From positions 1 through 22,275 of IMG/VR virus record IMGVR_UViG_3300035698_000863: DNA of 22,275 nt. One strand, written 5' to 3'. The notes beneath the pieces are model-generated. The model saw only the letters and a list, made by a program, of their open reading frames with translations. It searched no databases and was not told the DNA's origin. A program made the translations under genes and the position numbers. Positions 8,628 to 22,275 of the stretch are shown here, in pieces (the stretch's first letter is position 1; each line of letters begins with the position of its first letter). The DNA comes from a virus.

Positions 8628-9141
8628 TCATTCCTAAACTTTTAGCATATCGTGGCAAATTACAAGCCCAATACGCTGCTGTTGTTCTATCTTTCTGCTG
8701 ATCACATTTATGTCTAGCAGCAAAACTTTTTCTCGCCTTTAGATTATTTAATTTAACAGTTAATCCAGTTGTATCTCCCCAAGTGACTTTCTTAATCTTG
8801 TCGCCATCACGGACAAACACATAAAACTTCTTAGGACCGCCTCTTTTTGGTTTATTTAAAACCGGATCCTTTTCATCTTCTTCTTGTATCGGACAGTCTA
8901 AAGGTACTTTTTGACCCTCATGTTCGATAACTTCTCCGATATCAGTTTCTAATAGTTGTTTATCCCAATCAGATAATTCAATTAATAGACCCTCATTATA
9001 CAATTCTCTTGCTTCTCTAAACAACTTATAAAATTCTTCACTGTGAACACGATAAATGTTTTCTGCAAACGGTATATTATTTTCTATATGGTAATGTACC
9101 GATTTTGATAACTTGTCTTTATATTCACTAAATTTTAGCAT
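8602..9141 (-). CDS. DUF5872-like conserved phage protein
   Basis: A 179-residue protein. I choose ATG 9141, giving MLKFSEYKDKLSKS, within the 14-base overlap with the preceding stop; the longer version to 9180 adds a basic stretch with no counterpart I know. The C-terminal half has the DUF5872-like signature: RGGPKKFYVFVRDGDKIKKV, TWGDTTGL, ARKSFAARHKCDQQKD, TTAAYWACNLPRYAKSLGMS, ending GGGNFYW. The Arg-Lys-Ser-Phe-x-x-Arg-His-x-Cys and Tyr-Trp-x-Cys strings are strongly conserved in this family as I recall it, suggesting a nucleic-acid or metal-binding fold. The N-terminal half (HIENNIPFAENIYR, FREARELYNEG) is helical. Biochemical role unknown. Confidence 0.75.
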   Translation of the reverse strand: MLKFSEYKDKLSKSVHYHIENNIPFAENIYRVHSEEFYKLFREARELYNEGLLIELSDWDKQLLETDIGEVIEHEGQKVPLDCPIQEEDEKDPVLNKPKRGGPKKFYVFVRDGDKIKKVTWGDTTGLTVKLNNLKARKSFAARHKCDQQKDRTTAAYWACNLPRYAKSLGMSGGGNFYW

Positions 9142-11494
9142 AATCTTTAAACGATAACATCTTTTTTCTGACTTCATCAATCTTTGATTGATAGTCGTTT
9201 CCGTATCGTTCCCTATATTTATCTATTGTTTCACCTGAAGTTGCCCATTCTTCTATATCTTTTTCAGATATTTCTGGTGGATTGCCTCGTTCTTTTGCTT
9301 CAACTGGTTTATTGTCTGGTTTTTCACCAGGTGTCACTTCTTTTGTATGGTTTGCATAGTCGGCGCCAACTTCATACGATTCTTTTGTCTTCATTATTAA
9401 TTCTTTCTTTAATTGTCCAAAATATTTCTTCTTTTTTTCTTCGATTTTCTTTGGTTCTGTTTTAATTTCTTCTGGTTGAGAAACAGCTGTAAATCCATAA
9501 TCTACATCTAAATTATATTCTCTAATAGCAACCTCTTTATCTGAAACTATAGGAATACAATCCCATATCCAAGCTTTGTGTAAGTTGCCCTCTACGTCTT
9601 CTACTACTATGTAGTTTGTACTTTTTCTAACTACTTTGCCTTCAACACTTTCTTTGATATAGTTTACTTTATCGCCTATGTTAAAGATGATTTCTCTAAT
9701 ATATAAATCTCTTATTTGTTGTTGTTCAAACTGTTCTAAGCTTGCAATTGGGCTTACAGCACTATCATAAGCATATGAAGCTGCTAATCTCATTCCTTTT
9801 CTTACTTGCTTCATAATATCATCTGCATTTACCCCACGAGGTAATCCTAATTTGAAACTTCTTATATCACCTTTGGCAGCTGCATCTCTCATTTTACTTG
9901 CACTCATACCAATAGCTCCTTCAGCGTCTGGATCTCTTTCACCCGCTGATACAACTTCTATCTTATCAAAATTATAATATCCGTGTCTGCTTTTAACATT
10001 GTTATATTTTGTAAGTATTGTTTTAAATTCCACAGTTCTATCTGAACCTGCCACCATTTTAATTTCTGTAAAGCCTTTGTTATACAAATCGGTAGCAATA
10101 TCTAAAACCATATTTGTTTTATTAACCATTATTTTAGAAGCGTAAGATGGAAACATCTTTTTCATAATGTTTAATTTTTGGACTGCTGATAGCGGGTTCT
10201 TTTTAGGGTCTTCACTTCTACTTAAATAAATTCTATAATCATTTGCGGGAACACTCGCAACTTTTTTAATTAACTTCTCGTGTCCTATTGTTGGTGGATT
10301 AAATCTACCAAAAGCAAAAGCAACTGATTTTTTTGTAGCTTCTTGTAATGTTTCTTCGTGTACCATTGTTTGTAGTTTTTTGCCATCGATATCTCTAAAT
10401 GTATCAGCGACAGCGGAAGCGTAATAACCAATATCGTGTCTTAATGGTAATCCTTCTCTCGCTCTTTCGCTTTTCTTTCTATCAATAACATCTTGTAAAA
10501 CTTTAGCAGCATATTCATATCTCTTTTGAGTTGTTGCCATCATTTTAATTTTAGTAACTAAATTTTTAAACCAAGCAGTTGCTTTTATTTTTGCTTTGTC
10601 TAATGTGATTGCTTCTTTCAAACTATCTATTTCAGCGTCTGTTACTTCTCCGTCTTCTAAAATCTTTTTGCATTTTTTATAGAATGTTAGATAGTGATAT
10701 TTTTCTAACATCTTATAGATAACGTTTTTAGGTAATCTGTTTTTTACCCCAAACTTTCTTATTTCATCTGGCAACATATCTGTGTCAAAAGCTGCTCTTC
10801 TTTCAGCGTCAACCACAACGCCTATGTTAACAATATCATTTATACTATCTTCTATTTCTTCTAACTTATCATTAACCCTATCTTGTAAATCTAAAATATC
10901 ATTTGGTTGTAATTCTTTTAATTCGTCATAGTCAATAATATCTCTTTTTAATTCGCCCTTAACTACGTCCAATTCTTGTACTTTTCTTTCAAAATCTTTT
11001 AAGTATATGTTTAAATCAAAAACAAAATTATCTGGTCTTTTAATAAACTTATTGTTTTTTATATCGAATACTGTATCTGCTTTGTTATTCTGATCATCAT
11101 AAGTTTCTTTAGATGTTAAAAAATAAAAATTGATTGGGTGTTTAGTTCCTGGTATTTCTTTACCTTGAATATTATCTGGATTTTTTGCTGACAAATACTT
11201 TTGAGAAAGATTTGTTCGTTCTTCTTCTTGCTTTTCTTTTGGAACATCAAACAATACATTAATATCTAGGTCTGCGTCATTTCTATATCTCTTTGTAAGA
11301 ATAGAACCAATTAATGCTGTTTTGATGATGGGGTAATCTTTTTCAAAATCTTTAAGTTGATCGTTAATTAATTTTAAAATATTATCTTTAATTTTAGGAT
11401 TTTTAGTATCAGCGTCATCAAATACACCTGGGGCATATGTTTGTCTAGGTATATCAATGATACTTTCTTTTAAAAAATTTTTAAACTTTTTCAT
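9128..11494 (-). CDS. double nucleotidyltransferase fusion (Pol-beta-type plus HIGH-type)
   Basis: A 788-residue multidomain enzyme. The leader MKKFKNFLKES resembles a capsid-targeting sequence. Residues about 50-160 look like a Pol-beta/MNT nucleotidyltransferase: ALIGSILTKRYRNDADLDIN with Gly-Ser at 63-64 and acidic metal ligands in DADLD (73-77). Residues 391-560 are a cytidylyltransferase/NMN-adenylyltransferase-like domain: FAFGRFNPPTIGHEKLI (393-409, HIGH-type T-I-G-H) and GMSASKMRDAA (529-539), a counterpart of the I-S-x-T-x-x-R motif. About 605-650 looks like a small SH3-like barrel, and the tail (YEVGADYANHTKEVTPGE onward) matches segments I recall from other marine phages. It overlaps both neighbours (ATGA upstream, 14 bases downstream). 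Likely transfers nucleotides to a small molecule or RNA; substrates unknown. Confidence 0.75.
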   Translation of the reverse strand: MKKFKNFLKESIIDIPRQTYAPGVFDDADTKNPKIKDNILKLINDQLKDFEKDYPIIKTALIGSILTKRYRNDADLDINVLFDVPKEKQEEERTNLSQKYLSAKNPDNIQGKEIPGTKHPINFYFLTSKETYDDQNNKADTVFDIKNNKFIKRPDNFVFDLNIYLKDFERKVQELDVVKGELKRDIIDYDELKELQPNDILDLQDRVNDKLEEIEDSINDIVNIGVVVDAERRAAFDTDMLPDEIRKFGVKNRLPKNVIYKMLEKYHYLTFYKKCKKILEDGEVTDAEIDSLKEAITLDKAKIKATAWFKNLVTKIKMMATTQKRYEYAAKVLQDVIDRKKSERAREGLPLRHDIGYYASAVADTFRDIDGKKLQTMVHEETLQEATKKSVAFAFGRFNPPTIGHEKLIKKVASVPANDYRIYLSRSEDPKKNPLSAVQKLNIMKKMFPSYASKIMVNKTNMVLDIATDLYNKGFTEIKMVAGSDRTVEFKTILTKYNNVKSRHGYYNFDKIEVVSAGERDPDAEGAIGMSASKMRDAAAKGDIRSFKLGLPRGVNADDIMKQVRKGMRLAASYAYDSAVSPIASLEQFEQQQIRDLYIREIIFNIGDKVNYIKESVEGKVVRKSTNYIVVEDVEGNLHKAWIWDCIPIVSDKEVAIREYNLDVDYGFTAVSQPEEIKTEPKKIEEKKKKYFGQLKKELIMKTKESYEVGADYANHTKEVTPGEKPDNKPVEAKERGNPPEISEKDIEEWATSGETIDKYRERYGNDYQSKIDEVRKKMLSFKDYAKI

Positions 11495-12743: not shown

Positions 12744-12952
12744 TCGTTTGACATAGGACACCACGGTAATGGTTCCAACTCCTCTTGTAATCTTTCTGAT
12801 TCTGTTTGTCTTTTTTCTAGTTTTTTTATAATACTATTTTTTAAATCATCACTAAAAGAATCCAAATATCTTTCCATTTTATTTTGTAAACTTTGTTTAT
12901 ACGATTCGTCTAGTTGTTTTTTTTCTATTTCTGCGTGTTCTAAAAAATCCAT
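12740..12952 (-). CDS. 70-aa coiled-coil protein, unknown function
   Basis: A small protein starting at ATG 12952, which shares a base with the stop of the DUF6267-like gene (TAATG). A TTG at 12967 in the same frame is less likely. It reads MDFLEHAEIEKKQLDESYKQ, then a long charged helix (RYLDSFSDDLKNSIIKKLEK) and ends PLPWCPMSNE with a single Cys. The composition suggests a coiled coil or an oligomerising peptide. Its stop forms ATGA with the adenylate kinase gene. I do not recognise the family. Confidence 0.55.
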   Translation of the reverse strand: MDFLEHAEIEKKQLDESYKQSLQNKMERYLDSFSDDLKNSIIKKLEKRQTESERLQEELEPLPWCPMSNE

Positions 12953-14064
12953 TATCCTTTTACCCAATCCTTAGCAATTGTGAAATTGTCCCTACTGAAC
13001 TCCAGTCGATCTACTAATTTGACTGCACCTCTAACTCTATCAACTGCAACATATCCTTCAGGATTTGTTACTTTAAAACCATTAGGTGTTCTAATAAAAT
13101 GTCCGATTGACTGTATTTGATTTAATTTTCTAATTAAAAAACTTTTTGCTCTTTGTAATGATAGATGACTTGCAATAGCAAAATATAATCCTTGTTGGTT
13201 TCTATCAATAAATTTTAAACCATCTTCTTGTATTTTTTGGTATTTCTTTTTTGTATCTTCCCTAGTTACTGCGTCAACTTCTTGTTGTAAAATATTCTGA
13301 TAATATTCTCTAAACATTGTAACCAAAGACTTAACTTTTCCCATATCACTATTATTTCTAACGTAATAATTGAAAAATGTTTTTAATCTAAACCCTACAG
13401 ATAACGGATTAGAAGTTTCAAATTCATTTAATACGGCAGCTGCTTTGCTTAATGAACCTTCAGCTTGTGCTATAATACTATCAAATTGTGCCATCTCACC
13501 TTTATTAAATGTAGATGTTCCTGAAGTATCTTTGTACGTTGCGTCTGTAACAAATATAGATGATAATTTTGGAATACGAGTCAGTGAACCAAAACTAGCT
13601 GATAAGTTAGCCATATTTTTGCCAGAATATGAAGTGTGAAATACGATACCCATTCTTGCTCGTGCAATACGATTTCCGATATCACTATCTTTATCTACAG
13701 CATACGTGATTGTATTAGGAGTAAATGTGTAATATTGTCTATCATCTATGGATTGAGATTTAACATCACCTTTAGTAAATAATAAATCTCCTTGTAAAAT
13801 TCCTGTTATTCCTAGTTTAGACAATTCTCTTAAACATACTACTAGTTTATTTGCTAAAACTCCACTATGATTTTTCAGTATATCACCAGTAGAGTAATTG
13901 ATCTTAGGAGTTTTATTGAATATTGATTTTGTGCCTACAAAGAATTTACCGTTTTCTGGATTAATTCCGCAAAATACAGCAGGCGCACCGTCCCATTTAA
14001 CGGTGATATTAAGTCTACCGCCAATATTGCCTGTAAGCATTTTCTTAACTGATTTTAGAAACAA
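12952..14064 (-). CDS. DUF6267-like protein, main open part (TTG start if not bypassed)
   Basis: A 370-residue open frame from a TTG at 14064. Conserved-looking blocks are NITVKWDGAPAVFCGINPEN (19-38), KFFVGTKSIFN (40-50), GITGILQGDLLF (85-96), YYTFTPNTITYAV (111-123) and RMGIVFHTSYSG (137-148). These match a protein I recall from cyanophages and pelagiphages as DUF6267. The K-W-D-G string has the K-x-D-G form of the lysine motif of covalent nucleotidyltransferases (ligases, capping enzymes), with later blocks in roughly the right order for motifs III to IV; this is speculative. The true N-terminus lies farther upstream (to ATG 14178) but is cut by TGA at 14119-14121. The TTG has no clear ribosome site, so either an N-terminally short protein is made or the stop is bypassed. 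Confidence 0.75.
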   Translation of the reverse strand: MFLKSVKKMLTGNIGGRLNITVKWDGAPAVFCGINPENGKFFVGTKSIFNKTPKINYSTGDILKNHSGVLANKLVVCLRELSKLGITGILQGDLLFTKGDVKSQSIDDRQYYTFTPNTITYAVDKDSDIGNRIARARMGIVFHTSYSGKNMANLSASFGSLTRIPKLSSIFVTDATYKDTSGTSTFNKGEMAQFDSIIAQAEGSLSKAAAVLNEFETSNPLSVGFRLKTFFNYYVRNNSDMGKVKSLVTMFREYYQNILQQEVDAVTREDTKKKYQKIQEDGLKFIDRNQQGLYFAIASHLSLQRAKSFLIRKLNQIQSIGHFIRTPNGFKVTNPEGYVAVDRVRGAVKLVDRLEFSRDNFTIAKDWVKG

Positions 14065-14118
14065 TACGGCGTCTTTGCCGCCTTTAGATCCTCTATCTAT
14101 GATAGCGTCTTCGAGTCT

Positions 14119-14178
14119 TCACAGGTGCTCCAAATGAGTATTTTTTCCTTTGGTAATAAAACCTTTGAAACTAAACAT
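14119..14178 (-). other. separated 5' end of the DUF6267-like gene, ending in TGA
   Basis: From ATG 14178 the frame reads MFSFKGFITKGKNTHLEHL and then TGA, and continues in the same frame as RLEDAIIDRG into the main ORF. Family members, as I recall them, start roughly 'M..F..fi.EGKNTHLEHLEDeI', so the stop falls in the middle of the conserved H-L-E-H-L-E-D string. Relative to that, the sequence has 9 extra bases (for example GTGAAGACT after CACCT). The ATG overlaps the end of the endonuclease gene by 8 bases (ATGTTTAG). This is a decayed or bypassed 5' exon-like segment, or a sequencing/assembly error. Confidence 0.7.
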
Positions 14179-14189
14179 TCGGAGCACCT
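14123..14189. repeat. 9-bp inverted repeat flanking the DUF6267 start
   Basis: AGGTGCTCC at 14123-14131 and its reverse complement GGAGCACCT at 14181-14189 are perfect 9-bp arms 49 bases apart. In the transcript the first arm lies at the end of the endonuclease ORF (encoding its C-terminal Gly-Ala-Pro) and the second ends within the Leu codon just before the TGA. Pairing would enclose the DUF6267 start codon and place a stem directly before the stop. Confidence 0.6.
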
Positions 14190-14428
14190 AACCTTTCTTT
14201 ATATTGAATTGTTAAATTATATTTGTTGATATAGTATATCTCTTTTGAATATACTTCCTCTGGAGTGGAACAATGTTCTAATATTGTTCTTTTGAAATTC
14301 TCTCTTCCGTATTTGCGTATGGCAGACTTTAATAGTCTTCCACTTCCTAGGTAGGAATCACTATTGAATGTGCATACACCTATATACTTTTTACCGTTTT
14401 TTAAATTCTTCGTCTGATAAACAAACAT
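14171..14428 (-). CDS. short GIY-YIG homing endonuclease
   Basis: An 85-residue GIY-YIG nuclease resembling the N-terminal half of T4 Seg-type free-standing homing endonucleases. Motifs: first strand FVYQTKNLKNGKKYIGV (2-18), with V-Y and Y-I-G in place of canonical GIY and YIG; SYLGSGRLLKSAIRKYGREN (25-44), with conserved Gly and Arg; and YSKEIYYIN (60-68), where Glu63 is the likely metal ligand. Length is far below full Seg proteins; the DNA-binding C-terminal domain is missing, so it may be inactive or depend on a partner. The gene lies directly after a late promoter and overlaps the start of the DUF6267-like gene, as expected for a mobile gene lodged at a gene boundary. The ribosome site is weak. 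Confidence 0.85.
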   Translation of the reverse strand: MFVYQTKNLKNGKKYIGVCTFNSDSYLGSGRLLKSAIRKYGRENFKRTILEHCSTPEEVYSKEIYYINKYNLTIQYKERLGAPNV

Positions 14429-14492
14429 TTCTCTATTTCTCTCATTGGTTCCATTAATAATATCAACTTTTCCATATACTTTTCAACACTAC

Positions 14493-14500
14493 TATTTATA
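14493..14500 (-). promoter_or_regulatory. T4-type late promoter (TATAAATA)
   Basis: Exact TATAAATA on the minus strand, three bases past the stop of the 360-aa gene and 65 bases ahead of the endonuclease ATG. It marks the change from the replication block to the long late operon (14.4 to 4.9 kb). It may originally have served the DUF6267-like gene before the endonuclease arrived. Confidence 0.8.
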
Positions 14501-14503
14501 AGA

Positions 14504-15586
14504 TTAAATATACTTAAAATCGCCCATTAACCTAGTCGGATAGCCATCCGCACCTTGGGTATCTCTTATATTCAATTTAAATTCGTACTTTGGTGTCATA
14601 ATTTCCATATCAATTCTTTTACCTAGACCACCTTTACCACCATAATACACTACTAATGATTTTGGTTTAGCTGCTTCTCTCATATAAGCTTCATCAACTT
14701 TGATTGATTTAATAGTTCCGCCTAATTTATGGATGACGTGATATCCGTGTCCTATTCCTGATTGTAATAATTTCTCTAATTGAGTTTTTTGTAAACTGCT
14801 CATCTTAGGCCAAACATTTACACTATGACCTTTTTTCATTTTACCATTAAACACATCACAAAAATCCTCCTTATCGATATTAAATAATTTTAATATTCTA
14901 TTTCCATTAGGACTTTTAATACTATTTGATTTAATTTCTTGCGTTGTTAATATTGTTTTTACTCCAACATTAAAGAAAGTGGTGGTACCTGAAAGTTTTA
15001 AACTTAAATAAACTATTGGTTTTGATTTTTGTTTGTTATTAAATAGAGTTATATCTGTAACAATAGGACCTACATTTAATCCTTTTTGTCCATCAGCTCT
15101 CATTGTAATATCAGGTCCAAATATTAAAGGTCTTTTTGTGTTTGCAGCCCCTTCTTGGTGTACGTATAAATCTTTAAATCCATTTAATTTATAAGTCTTA
15201 TATAATCCTTCTATTGAAGGCACTAAAGACATATCAGTAATTTTTTCTCCTGCGTGATAATCCTGGGTAGCTGTTGCATATTGATTTTCAAATAAATTTC
15301 CTTTATTGTTAACACCTCTGCCGCCTTTAGAACCATTACCAAATTTCAATCGTATTGTATTAGCCTTTGTTTGTACCCTTATATTATTAATTTCTACCAT
15401 ACCTTGCAAGTCACGGCTAACATTTACCATAGTAAGACTATTAGGATCAAGGTTGATAGGTGTATCAATCTGCTTATATTTTGCAGTAAGATAGTTATAT
15501 ACGGATAAGATTTCTTGTATCTTAGTCTTATCGGTTCTTAACGATTTTATTTCTTTTGATGTTTTTGGAAACAACGTGTATGCCAT
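14504..15586 (-). CDS. conserved phage protein of unknown function (360 aa)
   Basis: A 360-residue protein with AAGGAG four bases upstream of ATG 15586. The N-terminal 60 residues are helical (IKSLRTDKTKIQEILSVYNY). The rest alternates strands and glycine-rich turns: KFGNGSKGGRGVNNKGNLFE (81-100), ADGQKGLNVGPIVTDITLF, SKPIVYLSLKLSGTTTFFNV and VVYYGGKGGLGKRIDMEIMT, ending NIRDTQGADGYPTRLMGDFK with a final YI. The charged D-x-x-x-x-Y-L-S-L-K type strand (about 180-200) faintly resembles PD-(D/E)xK nuclease cores, but the spacing is not convincing. I do not recognise the family. Its position between replication genes and the late operon suggests early or middle expression. It has its own candidate promoter. 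Confidence 0.65.
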   Translation of the reverse strand: MAYTLFPKTSKEIKSLRTDKTKIQEILSVYNYLTAKYKQIDTPINLDPNSLTMVNVSRDLQGMVEINNIRVQTKANTIRLKFGNGSKGGRGVNNKGNLFENQYATATQDYHAGEKITDMSLVPSIEGLYKTYKLNGFKDLYVHQEGAANTKRPLIFGPDITMRADGQKGLNVGPIVTDITLFNNKQKSKPIVYLSLKLSGTTTFFNVGVKTILTTQEIKSNSIKSPNGNRILKLFNIDKEDFCDVFNGKMKKGHSVNVWPKMSSLQKTQLEKLLQSGIGHGYHVIHKLGGTIKSIKVDEAYMREAAKPKSLVVYYGGKGGLGKRIDMEIMTPKYEFKLNIRDTQGADGYPTRLMGDFKYI

Positions 15587-15593
15587 ATTACTC

Positions 15594-15622
15594 CTTATAT
15601 ACTATTTATTACAATATGTCAA
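15594..15622 (-). promoter_or_regulatory. candidate sigma-70 promoter overlapping the ribosome site
   Basis: TTGACA (15622-15617), 17-base spacer, TATAAG (15599-15594) on the minus strand, between the 85-aa and 360-aa genes. The -10 overlaps AAGGAG, so a transcript starting here would begin at or near the ATG and be leaderless. An AATAAATA in the spacer (15610-15603) is one base from the late consensus. Which one, if any, is used is unclear. Confidence 0.4.
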
Positions 15623-15625
15623 GTA

Positions 15626-15883
15626 TTATTTGGTAATAAATAAAAATTTTGGCATACCGCCGCTGACTTGCCATACAAGGTGTTTATTTTGAAAGTTGAC
15701 TACTTTGTCAACATCTTCTTCAAAGAATGATTCTATAACCACACTCTTTGTAGGTTGTTCAACAGCTTGCCATATGATCTTATTCTTCTTCTTGGTCATA
15801 CGTTTTTCATAACATAGCTTTGCAACGTTTCCTCCAGGTCTTTTATCTCCTTTATGGAATCTAACTTTTTGTTTTTTTGACAT
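15626..15883 (-). CDS. small basic protein, unknown function
   Basis: An 85-residue protein. ATG 15883 is preceded by a perfect AGGAGG four bases upstream, the strongest ribosome site in the window; the frame could extend to 15910 but would overlap the oxygenase gene without such a site. It opens with a basic region (MSKKQKVRFHKGDKRPGGNV, KRMTKKKNKIIWQ), followed by an acidic, hydrophobic half (VVIESFFEEDVDKVVNFQNK) and ends GGMPKFLFITK. The layout suggests a small alpha-beta nucleic-acid-contact protein, but I know no family. The strong ribosome site implies high translation. Confidence 0.6.
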   Translation of the reverse strand: MSKKQKVRFHKGDKRPGGNVAKLCYEKRMTKKKNKIIWQAVEQPTKSVVIESFFEEDVDKVVNFQNKHLVWQVSGGMPKFLFITK

Positions 15884-15897
15884 ACATCCTCCTACTA

Positions 15898-16467
15898 TTA
15901 ATAAACCCAAGACACATATGAATATCTAACACCTTTAAACACAGGTTCTACTCTATGTGGATATAAAAACAAAGATGGAAATAAAATTAAATCTCCTTGT
16001 TTTAACTTTATTTTTTTATCTTTAAACATTATAAAATCTCCACCCTCGTAATCGTCATTTAAGGCTCCCACAATACTTAATGTAGGTATGCCTTTTCGTT
16101 CTCCATCAAAAATAGAGTTGATATGATCACAATGCTCGGCCATTTTTTTGTTTTCAGAATATTTATTGTATCTTAATGTCGTATATCCTTGCCAACCAAC
16201 AAACCACTCAAAGTCTAATTTTTTAATATAATCATCAATTACCTTCCAAAGTTTATCCATAATAATTTTATTCGTAGTTATTTTTTCATCAAAACTATAA
16301 TCATTCTCCAAATCTCCTGATAATGTACGAGTTAAATTTGATTTTGAATCGTAAAATACATTTTGTTTCCAGTTTGTATTTTTTAATTCATCTATTGTTT
16401 GATTGCATATATCTGGTGTTAAAAAATTACTATGTTTTACAATATATGAATCTAATAGCCTATCCAT
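15898..16467 (-). CDS. 2OG-Fe(II) oxygenase (prolyl 4-hydroxylase type)
   Basis: A 189-residue 2-oxoglutarate- and iron-dependent dioxygenase. The iron ligands appear as H112-x-D114 (in MAEHCDHINS) and H171 (in YPHRVEPVFKG), and R181 in VRYSYVSW is the likely 2-oxoglutarate anchor. Strand motifs typical of the fold are WFVGWQGYTTLRYNKYSEN (88-106), EGGDFIMFKD (141-150) and KQGDLILFPS (156-165). The family hydroxylates proline or other side chains, and phages of marine hosts often carry it; the substrate is unknown. The gene follows gp41 with a TAATG overlap, so it is co-expressed with replication genes. All key residues are present, so it should be active. Confidence 0.85.
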   Translation of the reverse strand: MDRLLDSYIVKHSNFLTPDICNQTIDELKNTNWKQNVFYDSKSNLTRTLSGDLENDYSFDEKITTNKIIMDKLWKVIDDYIKKLDFEWFVGWQGYTTLRYNKYSENKKMAEHCDHINSIFDGERKGIPTLSIVGALNDDYEGGDFIMFKDKKIKLKQGDLILFPSLFLYPHRVEPVFKGVRYSYVSWVY

Positions 16468-17843
16468 TATATTTTAAAATCTGAAAATTTATCATAGGAA
16501 GATTTAATTGGATCCTCTTTTGTTTGTCCACTATCTACAATATTTTGAGCTGATACATTAAGATCATACAGTTTCATCTTAGCTCTATCAACTCCAATAA
16601 TAAAAGCACGGTTCGTACTAGGATCATTATATCTATTCTTTAATTGTTTTATTTTCATTTGGCCTAATGCTTCTAGTTCTTCATTAGAAATGAGAGCAAA
16701 CATAAAGTCAGCTGTTGCTGGAAGACCAAATGATTCAGATGTATCTTCTAATCCAATATCAGATGAAGTAAATCCTGTTCTGGTTGTTTGTGTTGCACTA
16801 AAGATTGGTACATTAAATTCTACTGCAAGACCTCTCAATTCTTCAGCAATAGATTTAACCATTGTATATGAATTAATATTTCCACCTTTAAATCTAGCAC
16901 TAGAACATATGTTTAAATAATCTATAAAAACAACGTTAGGTTTAAAACTTTTCTTTAGTGCTAATTCATTAAATAATGCTCTAAAGTGCCCAGCGTGGGC
17001 TGACGCTGTAGGATATTCTTTGATAATTAATTTGCCTGTTGTCTTTGCTCTTAATTTAGCAATCTTATCTTCATATAGTTGTTTTGGCATTGCGTGTAAA
17101 TCATCCATAGTCACGTCTAATAAGTTTGCGTCTATTCTTTCAGCAATTCTTTCTTCAGCCATCTCTAAAGTAATATACAATACATTATGGCCTTGAGTTA
17201 AAAAACTTGAAGCACAGTGACACATAAACAAAGATTTACCAACACCTGTACCTGCAAGAGCAATGTTTAGTGTTTTAGGTGGTACCCCGCCTTTGGTAAT
17301 ACGGTTCATATAAGATAAATCAAACTGATATCTTTGTTCTTTTGTATGATACCAACTCCATCTATCTTCCGAATCTTCCATATAATCGTGACCAATATGA
17401 TTATCAAAACTAACAGCTAATGCCTTTGATAAAATTCCTGGAATAGCTTCTGGTGTATGTAGAGGATCTTTTTTATCTAATATTTTAATACCAGATAACA
17501 CAGCATTATGTACAGCCCTATCCTTACAAAACTTTTCTGTAGTATCAAATAGCCACTGTAAATCTGGTTTGTCCGAATCTATTAGTATAGTAGTTAAAAG
17601 TTGTTTAAGTAGTTTTATTTCTTCTTCGTTTATATCTTTTCTTTGATGAAGTTCGATTAAAATCGCTTCCTTTGTAGGAGGATTTTTATATTTGTTTACA
17701 AAGATATCAATCTGTTCAAACATCAATCTTTCAATTCTATTTGAAAAATAATCTGTTTTTAAAAATGGTAAAACTTTTCTTACGTAAGCTTCCGTATAGA
17801 ATAAGTTTCTTAATATTGTTAGTTCTAGTCTTTCATTAATCAT
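16467..17843 (-). CDS. 41: replicative DNA helicase gp41 (DnaB-like)
   Basis: A 458-residue homologue of T4 gp41, the hexameric 5'-3' helicase that unwinds the fork and works with the primase. The N-terminal helical domain (about 1-150) opens [20 protein letters not shown]. The RecA-like motor domain has Walker A LAGTGVGKSLF (196-206), TLEMAEERIAERID (225-238), Walker B NVVFIDYLNIC (303-313) and SATQTTRTGF after a polar stretch. Length is close to T4 gp41 (475). It overlaps the preceding small gene as ATGA and shares TAATG with the oxygenase. The order uvsX, small gene, 41 is the order I recall from T4-like marine phages. No primase (gp61) is in the window. Confidence 0.92.
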   Translation of the reverse strand: MINERLELTILRNLFYTEAYVRKVLPFLKTDYFSNRIERLMFEQIDIFVNKYKNPPTKEAILIELHQRKDINEEEIKLLKQLLTTILIDSDKPDLQWLFDTTEKFCKDRAVHNAVLSGIKILDKKDPLHTPEAIPGILSKALAVSFDNHIGHDYMEDSEDRWSWYHTKEQRYQFDLSYMNRITKGGVPPKTLNIALAGTGVGKSLFMCHCASSFLTQGHNVLYITLEMAEERIAERIDANLLDVTMDDLHAMPKQLYEDKIAKLRAKTTGKLIIKEYPTASAHAGHFRALFNELALKKSFKPNVVFIDYLNICSSARFKGGNINSYTMVKSIAEELRGLAVEFNVPIFSATQTTRTGFTSSDIGLEDTSESFGLPATADFMFALISNEELEALGQMKIKQLKNRYNDPSTNRAFIIGVDRAKMKLYDLNVSAQNIVDSGQTKEDPIKSSYDKFSDFKI

Positions 17844-18166
17844 TTATATTCAACCTTACCCTCATTCACTTGTTTTTCTAAACACTCTATTAATATATCG
17901 CCAATGTAATTAATAAACTCTTGGCTATCAACATCCTTATCCTCTGGATTTTTTACTATGTCAAAATCAAACTTCATTGGTAATGTTCCATCAGAATTTT
18001 CATCTTTAGCAAACGCAACTTTACCGTACTTGTAAACAACATTTAAATATTTGTCGTCAACTAGTTTGATACAGGTAAAATCGTCACCGTCTTTTTGAAC
18101 AAAGAGGTATCGTTTTTTATTCTGATTCGTCTGATCCGTAACTGAATTTTCTTTTGGCTGCTTCAT
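17840..18166 (-). CDS. small conserved protein between uvsX and gene 41
   Basis: A 108-residue protein from ATG 18166, overlapping the 3' end of uvsX by 50 bases; AGGAG lies 16 bases upstream inside uvsX, and a TTG at 18169 would be closer to it. The region [19 protein letters not shown] is hydrophilic and may be disordered. The rest is alpha-beta: [17 protein letters not shown] (about 20-36), [20 protein letters not shown] and [20 protein letters not shown]. No enzyme motif. The constant place between recombinase and helicase in related phages suggests an accessory replication or recombination role, but this is only from context. Confidence 0.65.
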
Positions 18167-19145
18167 CAATTTTGTCTAATATCTCCTTTGTAAAATACTT
18201 CTCGGGATCATCATTAATGCTTTTGCCAAATACTTTTGTTCCATCCGGCATTTCAAATCGTGTAGATACTTTTTTGAATATACCAGCTTCTTCAGCAATA
18301 TCTAACAGACCATAATATCTGTCTAAACCAGATTTGTATGTTAGTTTTACATCTATTTTAGCATTTTCTTTTGTTAACCTTGATTTATAGTTTTTACAAT
18401 GTATAATATTACCAATCACTTCCGTGCCGTCTTTTTCTTTACGTTTACTTAAATATATGATTGATGAAGCGGCGTACTTCAAACCTGATCCGCCACCCAT
18501 TTCTTTTTGTGGGAACATTGAACCGATAACATCATATGTATGATTGGTCATAATCATAGGCACATTTGCTTTACCTAATTTCAACGTTAAAACTCTAAAA
18601 GTGGATTTGACAATTTGCGATCTTGTCATATCTCTTGTTTCTTTACCAGCAGCTGTATCTTCCATTTCTTTTGTAGTAGATAACATACCTAAACTATCTA
18701 ATACAAACAACAAAGGTTTTCTATCTTTTTCTGGTTGTTCTATATATTTGTCTAATATTTTAATTGATTGTGTTCTAAATTCTTGTACTGTTGATACTGG
18801 AACAATCACCATTCTTGTTGAATCGATATCTCTAGCTTCAATCATCTCTTTTGAGATTGCACTTTCCGATTCGAAGTAGATAACACCAGCTTCTTTGTTT
18901 TTATCTAAGAATGCTTTACAAATACCTAAAGCAAAAAATGTTTTACCTGTAGCAGCTTCACCTGCAATAGCTGTAATCTTATTACCTGGCATTCCGCCAT
19001 ATACACTTCCAGATAATAATGCGTTGAAAGAATAGGAGCCTGTATCTATAAAATTTGTTATATCTGCACTATCAATACCATCACTAACTAGTGAAGCATA
19101 TTCATTACCTGTTTCTTTTATTATATCTTTTAAAAAATCACTCAT
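18117..19145 (-). CDS. uvsX: UvsX, RecA-like recombinase
   Basis: A 342-residue strand-exchange ATPase, the T4-type RecA. AGGAG precedes ATG 19145, and a sigma-70 promoter lies about 45 bases upstream. Motifs: Walker [16 protein letters not shown] (61-75), [20 protein letters not shown] (88-107), with the catalytic Glu region in FESE, Walker [13 protein letters not shown] (144-155), then the loop region ([20 protein letters not shown]) and [20 protein letters not shown] with [10 protein letters not shown], a probable DNA-binding loop. The length is somewhat short of T4 UvsX (about 390), a common size in marine relatives. It promotes recombination-dependent replication and repair with UvsY (not seen here). 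Confidence 0.92.
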
Positions 19146-19189
19146 TGTTCACTCCTATTATAATTAATAACATAATATTTTATACCCAT

Positions 19190-19218
19190 ATCATAACATA
19201 TTTTTTTGATATTGTCAA
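19190..19218 (-). promoter_or_regulatory. strong sigma-70 promoter upstream of uvsX
   Basis: The minus strand reads TTGACA (19218-19213), a 17-base AT-rich spacer, then TATGAT (19195-19190). This is a near-consensus host-type early promoter, about 45 bases before the uvsX ATG. The sequence just ahead of -35 (GAGC) is shared with the promoter at 20851, suggesting a common element. Confidence 0.8.
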
Positions 19219-19250
19219 GCTCTTTCGGGTGAAAATTATGTGTAAAATAC

Positions 19251-19682
19251 TTATTCCCCTTGTGTATTACTATTTGCATATTGTTGCATTGAATCTTTCT
19301 TCAATCTAATTGATTTTAAACCTGTTTCTCTATTTAAGAATTTATAATCTAGTTTAACCACATCAAAGTCTTGCTTTAATTTTTCAGCAATCTTATATGC
19401 GTCAAATTCAGCACAACTATATATGTCTAATTGCATTAATGCTGGAGCTGGTTCGTCCCAAACGTGCATTGCAATATGAGAGGTTTCAATAATTGCAACT
19501 GCTGTAATACCACGGTTTCCTGGCATTGTACAATACTTAACATAAGGACCCATAAACAATTTCATATTAATAAATTTAATAAATTGTTCCATCCATTCCT
19601 TTAATACCAATTCATCCATTGGTGGATTTTGAACCTCAGCCCTAATAATTAAGTGTTTATGTATCTGTAAACTGTTTTCCAT
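19251..19682 (-). CDS. speD: SpeD/SpeH-family pyruvoyl-dependent decarboxylase
   Basis: A 143-residue protein of the S-adenosylmethionine decarboxylase proenzyme family (class 1B size). The core reads ITAVAIIETSHIAMHVWDEP (59-78), then MQLDIYSCAEFDAYKIAEKL (83-102). Ser68 aligns with the serine that self-cleaves to give the pyruvoyl cofactor, and His73 and Cys90 with the processing/proton residues. The residue before the serine is Thr rather than the usual Glu. AdoMet decarboxylase supplies aminopropyl groups for spermidine; some phage and bacterial SpeD homologues act instead on ornithine or arginine, so the substrate is open. The gene ends 105 bases before uvsX, with the uvsX promoter between them. 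An AGGA ribosome site precedes ATG 19682. Confidence 0.82.
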   Translation of the reverse strand: MENSLQIHKHLIIRAEVQNPPMDELVLKEWMEQFIKFINMKLFMGPYVKYCTMPGNRGITAVAIIETSHIAMHVWDEPAPALMQLDIYSCAEFDAYKIAEKLKQDFDVVKLDYKFLNRETGLKSIRLKKDSMQQYANSNTQGE

Positions 19683-19711
19683 TTTCCTCTCGTTGTTTCT
19701 TGGTTTGTTAT

Positions 19712-20809
19712 TTATCTTATAATATCTATATTACTGTCCTTAGTCCAAATTTCAAGTTCATTCCTTAACCGACCATCTTCTTTGATATTATTAAATCTTT
19801 TTGTGGCAAGTTTTCTCCACCATTCTATAAGTTCTATATCATTGTACCTGTCAAAGTTAGGTGCTTTAACAATCTTATCTGTCTTACCGTTTACTATGTC
19901 GATATAGTTTTCAATACCATAGTTCGATACGTAATACCTTTTACGTTCTGTTAACTTCTTAGCATTGGTAATTGTGTCTTTAAACTTTTGTAAATCATTA
20001 CCATCTAAAGTCTTTTTAATTAAACCTTGTATTGCAGTTGTGATTTTTAATTTTCTACTAGAGGCATCCTCTTTAATGAATACACCGATTTTGTCTTCTA
20101 CATAATTAAGTAATTCTTTAAATGGTTTTCCGTGTATCATAGGAATAAAATCACTATCAGTTAACCCTCTATTTTTTAACATAGGTTTCATACCATCATA
20201 TTGACTAGCAGCTTTACTGTTACCAAATAAACTTGTGGTTTCAAACATACACAGGTTCATATCATATTTATTATTTAATTTTTCCCTAACTGAATGTGAA
20301 CAACACAAAGCAGCTAGTAGTTTACCACCAAGATAATTGAAACCAAAAGGTTGTGATGGTACTATTACAAATCCCATAATAGCAGTCTTGTTGAATACTT
20401 TTAAATCAGGTACATTTCCTAATAATACATTTCTTGGTCGCATATTAATAACAGGAGAACCAAATCTCATAAAACCAACATACGTATTTGTATTCTTTTC
20501 CTTTACTGCCAACTTTAAACTTTTACCAGGAATACTTACCATATTACTATGACTTGATATCATATTAATACAAGTGTCCCACGTATGGTTATCTAGTTCA
20601 GCAACTTCTAAATCCATATCTTCTGGCAACATAGTAAAGTCATTAAATAGTTCTGTTTCTAATCCCATACCAGGAAGTGAAGTTGGTATAGATTCAATTT
20701 GAGCCATTTTCTGATCTCTCATATATTCATCTATACGAGTGAATTGATCAAAATAATTTGAAAATACATTAGCACAATATTGTGCTTCTTCTCTACTTAG
20801 GGTCTTCAT
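19712..20809 (-). CDS. conserved phage protein, possibly DUF4338-like
   Basis: A 365-residue protein just after a strong sigma-70 promoter. The core has VGFMRFGSPVINMRPRN (111-127), FNKTAIMGFVIVPSQPFGFN (139-158), YLGGKLLAALCCSHSVRE, CMFETTSLFGNSKAASQYDG, and later WWRKLATKRFNNIKEDG. The order of strands (initial 'GS', then 'ilP..pf.fnyLg.kLL.al', then 'l.ETtsl.G.s....y') resembles DUF4338, the fold of DruA in the Druantia defence system, but the match is distant and by eye only. In phages such a protein could be a nucleic-acid enzyme made early. It is flanked by the adenine methyltransferase and SpeD. Unknown function is the safe call. Confidence 0.65.
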   Translation of the reverse strand: MKTLSREEAQYCANVFSNYFDQFTRIDEYMRDQKMAQIESIPTSLPGMGLETELFNDFTMLPEDMDLEVAELDNHTWDTCINMISSHSNMVSIPGKSLKLAVKEKNTNTYVGFMRFGSPVINMRPRNVLLGNVPDLKVFNKTAIMGFVIVPSQPFGFNYLGGKLLAALCCSHSVREKLNNKYDMNLCMFETTSLFGNSKAASQYDGMKPMLKNRGLTDSDFIPMIHGKPFKELLNYVEDKIGVFIKEDASSRKLKITTAIQGLIKKTLDGNDLQKFKDTITNAKKLTERKRYYVSNYGIENYIDIVNGKTDKIVKAPNFDRYNDIELIEWWRKLATKRFNNIKEDGRLRNELEIWTKDSNIDIIR

Positions 20810-20850
20810 TATTCCACATCCATAACATAATTACTGGTATCAATACTAAT

Positions 20851-20879
20851 ACTATACTACATATTAAACTTAATGTCAA
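20851..20879 (-). promoter_or_regulatory. strong sigma-70 promoter upstream of the 365-aa gene
   Basis: TTGACA (20879-20874), 17-base spacer, TATAGT (20856-20851) on the minus strand, in the 75-base gap after the methyltransferase gene and about 42 bases before ATG 20809. It matches host sigma-70 promoters closely and carries the same AGC-TTGACA context as the uvsX promoter. Confidence 0.8.
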
Positions 20880-20884
20880 GCTCA

Positions 20885-21436
20885 TTATTTAAACTTATCT
20901 GTTTGATTTCCCCAGCTGTCCCAACCAGGTCTTTTTGTTCTGGCAAACAACTCAATATAGGGGCCCTCCACCAATCTTTCAATTCTATTATACATCTGGT
21001 CTGGTTTTCTGGAGTGTTCTCTACGTTTAGATACAACTAGTTGTTGCACGTCTTTATTGATTCGTTTTGGTTTACCTTTTGTAGCAAGTAAACACATTTC
21101 AGGATTGGCTCGTGTCCAATAACCCATTCCTGTAAAATAATCAGGATTAGTTTTGTTCATTTTTACCCAAGTAAAGGCAACTGTCTTATAGGTAAAACCC
21201 CAGCCTTCTATAACTTCAAATGCTTTTTTAAGAAATGGGTCTGTAACCCACATTAAGAGAGTTGAATTGTCCTCAGCAATTCGCTCAACAGGTAAAGAAA
21301 CAATGTCACTAAGACCAAGGCACTGATAATGCTTAGTAGCGTTTCTTCCTTGTCCTTTTTGCGAATATGATTTAAAATACCACGGAGGATCAGCATAAAT
21401 TACTTTATATTTTTTGTTACTAATATTTATGTCCAT
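20885..21436 (-). CDS. MT-A70-type DNA N6-adenine methyltransferase
   Basis: A 183-residue methyltransferase of the MT-A70 superfamily, transferring methyl from SAM to the N6 of adenine. Motif IV is VIYADPPWYFKSY (12-24, catalytic D-P-P-W at 16-19). LLMWVTDPFLKKAFEVIEGW (60-79), TWVKMNK (89-95) and GMGYWTRANPEMCLLATKGK (103-122) follow, with the R-x-N-x-E binding string. REHSRKPDQMYNRIERLVEG (139-158) and YIELFARTKRPGWDSWGNQ (160-178) close the fold. The protein is short, as usual for phage members, and has no target-recognition domain or restriction partner next to it. Likely role: protecting phage DNA from host restriction or marking replicated DNA. It follows gp43 with a weak terminator between. 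Confidence 0.88.
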   Translation of the reverse strand: MDINISNKKYKVIYADPPWYFKSYSQKGQGRNATKHYQCLGLSDIVSLPVERIAEDNSTLLMWVTDPFLKKAFEVIEGWGFTYKTVAFTWVKMNKTNPDYFTGMGYWTRANPEMCLLATKGKPKRINKDVQQLVVSKRREHSRKPDQMYNRIERLVEGPYIELFARTKRPGWDSWGNQTDKFK

Positions 21437-21442
21437 AATTAA

Positions 21443-21469
21443 AAAATTGATATGTTAATTAATCATATC
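21443..21469 (-). terminator. AT-rich hairpin with T tract after gene 43
   Basis: On the minus strand GATATG (21469-21464) and CATATC (21454-21449) form a 6-bp stem around ATTAATTAA, followed by AATTTTTT, ten bases after the polymerase stop. The layout is that of an intrinsic terminator but the stem has only two G-C pairs, so it may be weak. Confidence 0.35.
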
Positions 21470-21478
21470 TAATATACT

Positions 21479-22275
21479 CTAAAAGAATGCCTCCAAATTT
21501 GCTTTAGGTTCGTGTTCCCATCCAATAGCTTGTAATATAAATCTCATTGGATCAAGGAATGTTTTTTGGAACTGTGTTTCATAATCTATATATTGTTGTA
21601 ATTTAAACTCTTTGGGTAATACTGTAATATAACTGATTACATCAAACTTAAATGGATTAGCTTCTATCAATTTTAAAAATTTAATTTTATCACCTTCTTG
21701 TATGTAGGGGTATTTATTTTGCAACTTAAATTGTTTTATTTGATGATTATAAATCAAAGCACCTTTCACGTGTATTGGCGTTCCCTTAATACAGATATTA
21801 TTACTGTCTTTATATTTTTTCATATTATTGCAAGACCTAGGAAAGGATATCTGTTCAGCCGACATATTGAAAAACTTGGTTTTAAAGTCTGCAATAAACG
21901 TATGCAAATCGCCTTCTGTTTTGTTCATTATAATATTAATAGCTTCTTTAATTTTACCTCTACAAACTTTTGGTGTGGAAGATTTAACAGCTTCAATACC
22001 CATAATCTTTAATTTAGATTTAGAAAGTCTAACCCCTTCTTCATCTAAGACATTTAACATATATCTTTTCTTAGCAACCCATATGCCTTTATTGGCAATT
22101 ACTTCTCGTTTCATAACCATACAATTTTTAAAAGCATTTGTATAATCGGATAATTCATCAAAACATTTCTCTAGGAATGGTTCAATTCTGCTATCAACAA
22201 CCTTATCTATAAAATTACATATTTGGTCATTTGTTTTACCCTTACAAGTTTTTTCTACTAACTTATCAAGTGTTA
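21479..22275 (-). CDS. 43: DNA polymerase gp43, C-terminal part (family B)
   Basis: The last 264 residues of a family B DNA polymerase of T4 gp43/RB69 type; the frame is open past the right window edge, so the internal ATG at 22120 is not the start. The visible part covers the thumb and palm end: MKREVIANKGIWVAKKRYML (DREAI..-K-x-x-Y-motif, KKRY conserved), LKIMGIEAVKSSTPK (matching the RB69 'LKIMGMETQQSSTPK' block), FHIR-equivalent IHVKGALIYN, and the C-terminal FQKTFLDPMRFILQAIG-type segment ending WEHEPKANLEAFF, a probable sliding-clamp contact peptide similar to the T4 tail KASLFDMF. Polymerase and exonuclease catalytic aspartates lie outside the window. It opens the replication block shown here. 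Confidence 0.93.
   Translation of the reverse strand, partial: TLDKLVEKTCKGKTNDQICNFIDKVVDSRIEPFLEKCFDELSDYTNAFKNCMVMKREVIANKGIWVAKKRYMLNVLDEEGVRLSKSKLKIMGIEAVKSSTPKVCRGKIKEAINIIMNKTEGDLHTFIADFKTKFFNMSAEQISFPRSCNNMKKYKDSNNICIKGTPIHVKGALIYNHQIKQFKLQNKYPYIQEGDKIKFLKLIEANPFKFDVISYITVLPKEFKLQQYIDYETQFQKTFLDPMRFILQAIGWEHEPKANLEAFF

Follow-up and report, generated by a model that had tools for sequence, protein, structure and literature searches.

The Druantia type I anti-phage system of bacteria combines DruA with DruB, DruC, DruD, and DruE, and in the literature that we searched we found no account of what DruA does in Druantia. DUF4338, the Pfam family of DruA, has been named a GNAT domain (available part of PMC10853773), and the term DUF4338 also occurs in the available parts of PMC7251935 and PMC6174562. 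A word search found 'DruA' absent from the main text of PMC12458937 and PMC13192584. On the phage side, DruA-like proteins were reported by structural likeness in six Synechococcus phages, including S-PRM1, in the available part of the Phold paper (PMC12774648), and Mom-family GNATs were described in jumbo phages (available part of PMC7824862). Kinship between phage proteins and DruA is, going by the available text of PMC12774648, partly published already. As far as our searches show, what is apparently new relative to this literature is sequence homology over most of the protein length, a clade B paralogue, a usual position among replisome genes, and a structural ranking that places Mom first.

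Here, we analyzed 22,275 nucleotides of viral DNA (IMG/VR record IMGVR_UViG_3300035698_000863), referred to as the window. Our data support the conclusion that a bacterial protein of defence against viruses has a genuine relative encoded by a marine bacteriophage, in the midst of its genes for DNA copying. Our best reading, to which we give a probability of roughly 40%, is that this protein is a GNAT-type acyltransferase, homologous to DruA, that makes a Mom-like modification of phage DNA.

Homology to DruA

The gene (19712..20809, minus strand, ATG start) encodes a DruA-like (DUF4338) protein of 365 amino acids, recognized from its open reading frame and by Pfam, PHROG, and PADLOC. Residues 91-192 (20234..20539, minus strand) match positions 76-179 of the 297 in the Pfam DruA profile (PF14236), with 31.3 bits against a gathering cut-off of 27 (E 1.5e-7). 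PADLOC, which was run on three window proteins, matched DruA1 to residues 61-186 (E 5.4e-6), and PHROG assigned the protein to phrog_19197 (474.5 bits), a family annotated as function unknown. NCBIfam gave no match, the strongest hit in a sequence search of the PDB (E 0.61) was unconvincing, and a Pfam match to adenovirus IVa2 (E 0.03) fell below the cut-off and was taken as chance. Reciprocally, two plasmid-borne bacterial DruA proteins match phrog_19197 (E 4.8e-7 and 2.3e-6), and five phage relatives also exceed the PF14236 cut-off (35.3-80.3 bits). When 53 phage proteins (alignment A1; 52 loci plus the window, with loci from named phage records left out) were compared to seven bacterial and archaeal DruA proteins (A2), hhalign gave a probability of 99.0 (E 4e-18) over 280 columns, which is most of the length, and the alignment extends to a C-terminal W and R. 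Identity of the phage proteins to a Nitrosococcus DruA is 16-19%. The Pfam score, the reciprocal plasmid matches, and the hhalign result indicate that the window protein is almost certainly a phage homologue of Druantia type I DruA. The first-pass annotation had suggested this kinship; similarity to DUF4338 was found at the profile level, and structural likeness has been published (available part of PMC12774648).

The three peptides on which that suggestion was built are all present in the open reading frame, and the PF14236 E-value argues against a chance resemblance. FGSPVIN (residues 116-122; 20444..20464, minus strand) lines up, together with R126, with the GDPVFNL..RD stretch of bacterial DruA. 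The second peptide, FVIVPSQPFGFNYLGGKLLAA (residues 147-167; 20309..20371, minus strand), is predicted to form the strand, loop, and helix at which other GNATs bind CoA, a placement that we infer from the alignments and the structural model. In the region of MFETTSLFG (residues 188-196; 20222..20248, minus strand), the phage and bacterial rows share T191, S193, and G196, followed by S202 and Y204. Many invariant columns of the 53 aligned phage proteins fall within these motifs. Besides Met1, we found 21 positions conserved in at least 5 of 6 phage rows and at least 33 of 35 bacterial rows, which include, in addition to the five just named and R126, G95, G112, P154, G161, G162, K163, Y182, G215, and W331 (window numbering).

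Bacterial sequences were drawn from 80 genome loci, 76 of which have a DruA open reading frame; 35 entered alignment A7 and 28 entered the tree list. Three of the 80 loci were checked with PADLOC for DruB, DruC, and DruD. All three adjoin DruA in two of these loci, and the third holds DruD only, plus a 955-amino-acid protein without a match. No Druantia type I set was found at the window, where the neighbours are of the gp43, MT-A70, SpeD, UvsX, and gp41 types.

Predicted structure and relation to Mom

Mom is a DNA-modification enzyme, and many other GNATs act on proteins or small molecules. An AlphaFold2 model of the phage protein, built on A1, reached a mean pLDDT of 86.5 and a pTM of 0.83. 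Foldseek found no PDB match to this model at E ≤0.001, and its best PDB rows were mostly acyltransferases. Among 997 chains, VIA-align ranked phage Mu Mom (8bv8) first (Z 10.0, rmsd 4.2, 183/222 aligned), followed by ordinary GNATs at Z 9.5, a difference that is a tie by VIA-align's own rule. The best 50 of the 997 rows are all titled acetyltransferases (Z 8.9-10), in a ranking that covers only Foldseek's own matches and leaves room for other folds. A model of bacterial DruA (Chromobacterium, alignment A7, pLDDT 85.5) likewise ranked Mom first (Z 9.6, rmsd 3.8, 173 aligned; next 8.6), and the two models are not fully independent since A7 held six phage rows. Judging from these models, the core of the phage protein very probably adopts a GNAT fold, predicted to span residues 61-309 (19883..20629, minus strand), the range aligned to Mom.

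These structural neighbours also bear on an earlier proposal that the protein is a nuclease- or ligase-like DNA enzyme. We found nothing in its favour beyond the proposal itself; the best PDB matches of the model are mostly acyltransferases, and neither a nuclease nor a ligase family appeared in Pfam at E values of 1 or lower, which makes such an enzyme highly improbable.

We rejected Mom as a sequence homologue, since the profiles do not support it even though Mom is the first-ranked structure. The window protein drew no Mom (PF25680) row from Pfam at E values of 1 or lower, and hhalign of Mom gave 0.4% against the phage set and 0.06% against the bacterial DruA set, with a Mom alignment of only nine sequences. 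The conserved loop of the phage DruA-like proteins is without the PRNSES stretch of Mom, which holds S124 (Mu numbering), presumably the one that was mutated to give the inactive protein of 8bv8. The public label 'methylcarbamoylase mom' on a homologue in S-SCSM2R (PQ898602.1 133706-134827, locus L082) was also rejected; Pfam identifies this protein as DruA, with no Mom match at E up to 1.

A Mom relative was seen in Methylophilales phage Melnitz-3 (Kyanoviridae, with another host), where it is labelled DUF465 (L374 292-1101, tblastn E 7e-17); Melnitz records are absent from the 31 records that carry a DruA-like gene by tblastn. In BFVD, the giant-virus proteins A0A3G4ZXG3, A0A5K0UAJ3, and A0A3G4ZRA1 (Faunusvirus, Yasminevirus, and Dasosvirus) rank within the four best viral structural matches of each DruA model, with best E-values of 6e-15 (phage) and 2e-15 (bacterial).

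The usual GNAT motif is Q/RxxGxG/A, and the conserved GGK loop departs from it. This departure, together with the location of the gene in the replisome region, would suit a non-catalytic or sensing module: DruA proteins would recognize DNA or some structure formed during replication, an ability that the phage would direct at its own replication or at phages competing with it. The polar residues K163, T191, S193, S202, and Y204 are nevertheless kept in phage and bacterial rows, which suits catalysis better. We regard a sensing module as rather unlikely, and the protein is probably an enzyme rather than a dead fold.

Distribution and evolution of the phage gene

Relatives of the window protein were detected by tblastn in 31 of 50,697 phage records, some of which are duplicates of one phage. 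These comprise 25 records of Synechococcus phages, three of Pelagibacter phages, two of marine single-cell viruses, and one of another cyanophage. For scale, relatives of the gp44 clamp-loader protein at 1e-40 occur in 1,686 records, 421 of which share 60% identity or more with the protein of S-SM2. Given these counts, the DruA-like gene looks like an accessory gene found in a minority of phages. Viral-contig stretches were confirmed for four query proteins (237, 121, 145, and 278, in sets that may overlap), and 80 were kept per query. Matches were present in 327 loci; those with an unclosed 3' end or fewer than 330 amino acids were dropped, and 317 sequences, window included, were clustered.

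The phage proteins form two clades: A, with the window and cyanophage proteins, and B, with the protein of Mosig EXVC030M and the second copy of HTVC008M (86116-87258), a phage that contains both paralogues. The Mosig protein matches PF14236 with 80.3 bits over profile positions 60-296, and by this match it bridges to bacterial DruA. A 70-row maximum-likelihood tree separates the phage proteins, both clades jointly, from the sampled bacterial and archaeal ones, with support of 100/99 for this division. The tree is unrooted, with a root placed for drawing only, and so carries no direction of transfer, which leaves it neutral on the first-pass suggestion that the phage gene is an ancestral source of the defence gene; inner placements are unsure because several branches are long. 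Pairwise dN/dS (NG86) is approximately 0.04-0.11 in 10 window-clade pairs and 0.07-0.15 in five clade B pairs, rough values since dS exceeds 1 in several pairs. These codon comparisons support the view that the phage gene is under purifying selection.

Gene neighbourhood

We found that one paralogue usually sits among replisome genes, in the order gp44-x-gp62 or gp43-(MT-A70)-x-uvsX. Loci were grouped by the best-scoring of the four query proteins, and a neighbour here means whichever of 28 marker genes lies closest; small unmarked open reading frames may intervene, as in S-SM2. At the window, an MT-A70 adenine methyltransferase gene (20885..21436, minus strand) and the C-terminal part of a gp43-type DNA polymerase gene (21479..22120, minus strand; PHROG) lie upstream. 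Directly downstream is a gene for an S-adenosylmethionine decarboxylase-like protein, SpeD (19251..19682, minus strand; Pfam), followed by the usual downstream marker, a UvsX-like recombinase gene (18117..19145, minus strand; PHROG). Among the 82 loci of the window group, which include the window itself in reverse (L087), MT-A70 is the upstream marker in 62 and gp43 in 11, and UvsX is downstream in 65; the remaining loci end before a marker or differ. The two cyanophage-type groups have gp44 upstream in 70/83 and 67/81 loci and gp62 downstream in 70/83 and 78/81, with both as nearest markers in 59/83 and 64/81. Of the clade B loci, 64/81 have a peptide-deformylase-like gene upstream, and the clade B genes of Mosig and HTVC008M lie near recombination-endonuclease genes. 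Pelagiphage clade B paralogues near both gene types were seen at L083 6674-7972 and L458 7117-8259.

The place of the gene between two clamp-loader subunit genes in most cyanophage-type loci raises the alternative that the protein is a GNAT acyltransferase with a protein substrate, for example a clamp-loader subunit within the replisome, a defence protein, or the RNA polymerase or another protein of the host, and that it thereby aids takeover of the cell. The fold evidence from the model and VIA-align would suit this alternative equally, and a phage GNAT that acetylates RNA polymerase has been described (available part of PMC7824862). Nonetheless, bacterial DruA, with the same conserved residues, adjoins other Druantia proteins, and both the phage and bacterial models rank a DNA-modification protein first. 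We therefore consider a protein substrate unlikely.

Neither of the two flanking enzymes looks like a general partner. The adenine methyltransferase neighbour noted in the first-pass annotation is real (Pfam MT-A70, 113.6 bits, with DPPW present), and MT-A70 lies within the flanks of 63/82 window-group loci, but of 0/83, 0/81, and 0/81 loci in the other groups. Searches of six whole records returned one short MT-A70 match (Mosig, 29.3 bits) and none in the other five. Functional coupling of the DruA-like protein to the methyltransferase is thus weak. SpeD is directly downstream in 0/62 window-group relatives with room for it, and a speD gene occurs somewhere in 14/83 and 20/81 cyanophage-type loci. 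By eye, the likely processing site of the window SpeD-like protein, TSHIAMH, appears intact.

Elsewhere in the window, a short GIY-YIG homing-endonuclease-like gene (14171-14428, 85 amino acids) was observed, as was a gene for a DUF6267 protein (12952-14064) with a KWDGAP stretch, which we take to resemble a ligase-type nucleotidyltransferase motif. A 788-amino-acid protein (9128-11494) joins nucleotidyltransferase-like and cytidylyltransferase-like domains.

Promoter and the decoy explanation

A promoter-like sequence, TTGACA-17-TATAGT (20851..20879, minus strand), lies 41 nucleotides before the start codon and agrees with 11 of 12 consensus bases. The gene had been described as standing under a strong early promoter; a sigma-70 consensus-type promoter is indeed present, and its strength and early timing are predicted from its sequence. 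It is one of two 11/12 sites in 14000-22275, a region in which sites of all strengths are in no clear excess (53 found, 48.7 expected, sd 6.8). The best upstream site averages 10.27/12 in the window group (77 loci with 130 nucleotides upstream) and 10.15 in clade B (80 loci), compared to 8.53 after shuffling in each case, where 20 shuffles per locus kept base composition only. In the window group, the match is 12/12 at 12 loci, 11 at 23, and 9 or fewer at 21; the closest relative with upstream DNA (L001, 96% identical) is without the promoter match, its best site scoring 8/12. Averages are 8.82 versus 8.24 shuffled in the S-PRM1 group (78 loci) and 8.29 versus 8.15 in the S-SM2 group (77 loci), which is what a gene transcribed as part of the gp44-gp62 cluster might show.

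DruA homology over most of the length and a consensus-type promoter, possibly an early one, might be displayed by a protein that counters host Druantia as an inhibitor or, as suggested in the first-pass annotation, as a decoy. DruA is uncommon, however, occurring in 10 of 289 genomes (a sample of one bacterial class that is not host-specific and includes one genome picked as its centre for having DruA). The 16-19% identity to Nitrosococcus DruA and the presence of two paralogues in one group are more in keeping with an old enzyme than with a mimic. Since two distant phage clades have retained the motifs and selection appears to be purifying, a mere decoy is improbable.

Proposed function

Our computations support DUF4338 membership along most of the protein, a GNAT fold, the conserved motif set, purifying selection, the sigma-70-type promoter, and the replisome position. 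Returning to the preferred reading, an acyltransferase that modifies phage DNA, the protein would bind an acyl donor at its QPxGxNxxGGKLLA loop and transfer a group to phage DNA bases during copying, and the resulting Mom-like modification would shield phage DNA from host restriction. The MT-A70 methyltransferase would place a separate mark in the window lineage rather than act as a partner. We favour phage DNA as the target for three reasons: the gene keeps company with replication genes, the bacterial relative is part of an anti-phage system, and Mom heads the ranking of solved structures; DNA as the substrate is still a tentative proposal, somewhat short of even odds. By extension, DruA itself may be a Mom-like DNA-base-modifying enzyme, such that Druantia type I rests on a base mark and marine T4-like phages mark their own DNA with the same chemistry during copying, an idea that we hold to be doubtful.

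A stand-alone phage homologue, under apparent purifying selection and without adjacent DruB-DruE, isolates the activity of DruA for direct study, and HTVC008M, S-PRM1, and S-SM2 are isolated carriers of the gene. If carrier DNA does contain an unusual base, it would represent a further DNA modification in marine phages and a hint as to how Druantia type I deals with DNA.

Comparison with known systems

Phage Mu Mom (PF25680, 8bv8) shares the predicted GNAT fold and is the top-ranked solved structure for both the phage and bacterial models, yet no sequence relationship to it was seen, and it has 241 amino acids compared to 365 for the window protein. The DUF4338 GNAT domain of DndF belongs to the same Pfam family, but it is an N-terminal fusion in a DNA-restricting system (available part of PMC10853773), whereas the window gene is a stand-alone phage gene. 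The DruA-like protein of S-PRM1 is of the same phage family (47.4% identity over 99% to the window protein); the window differs from S-PRM1 and the other published Synechococcus phages in belonging to another lineage, with MT-A70 upstream. Relative to Druantia DruA, the phage gene has replication-gene neighbours and no DruB-DruE was found beside it, yet the two proteins are homologous over most of their length and agree at the GGKL, TxS..G, and S.Y positions, and a GNAT-like fold is predicted for each.
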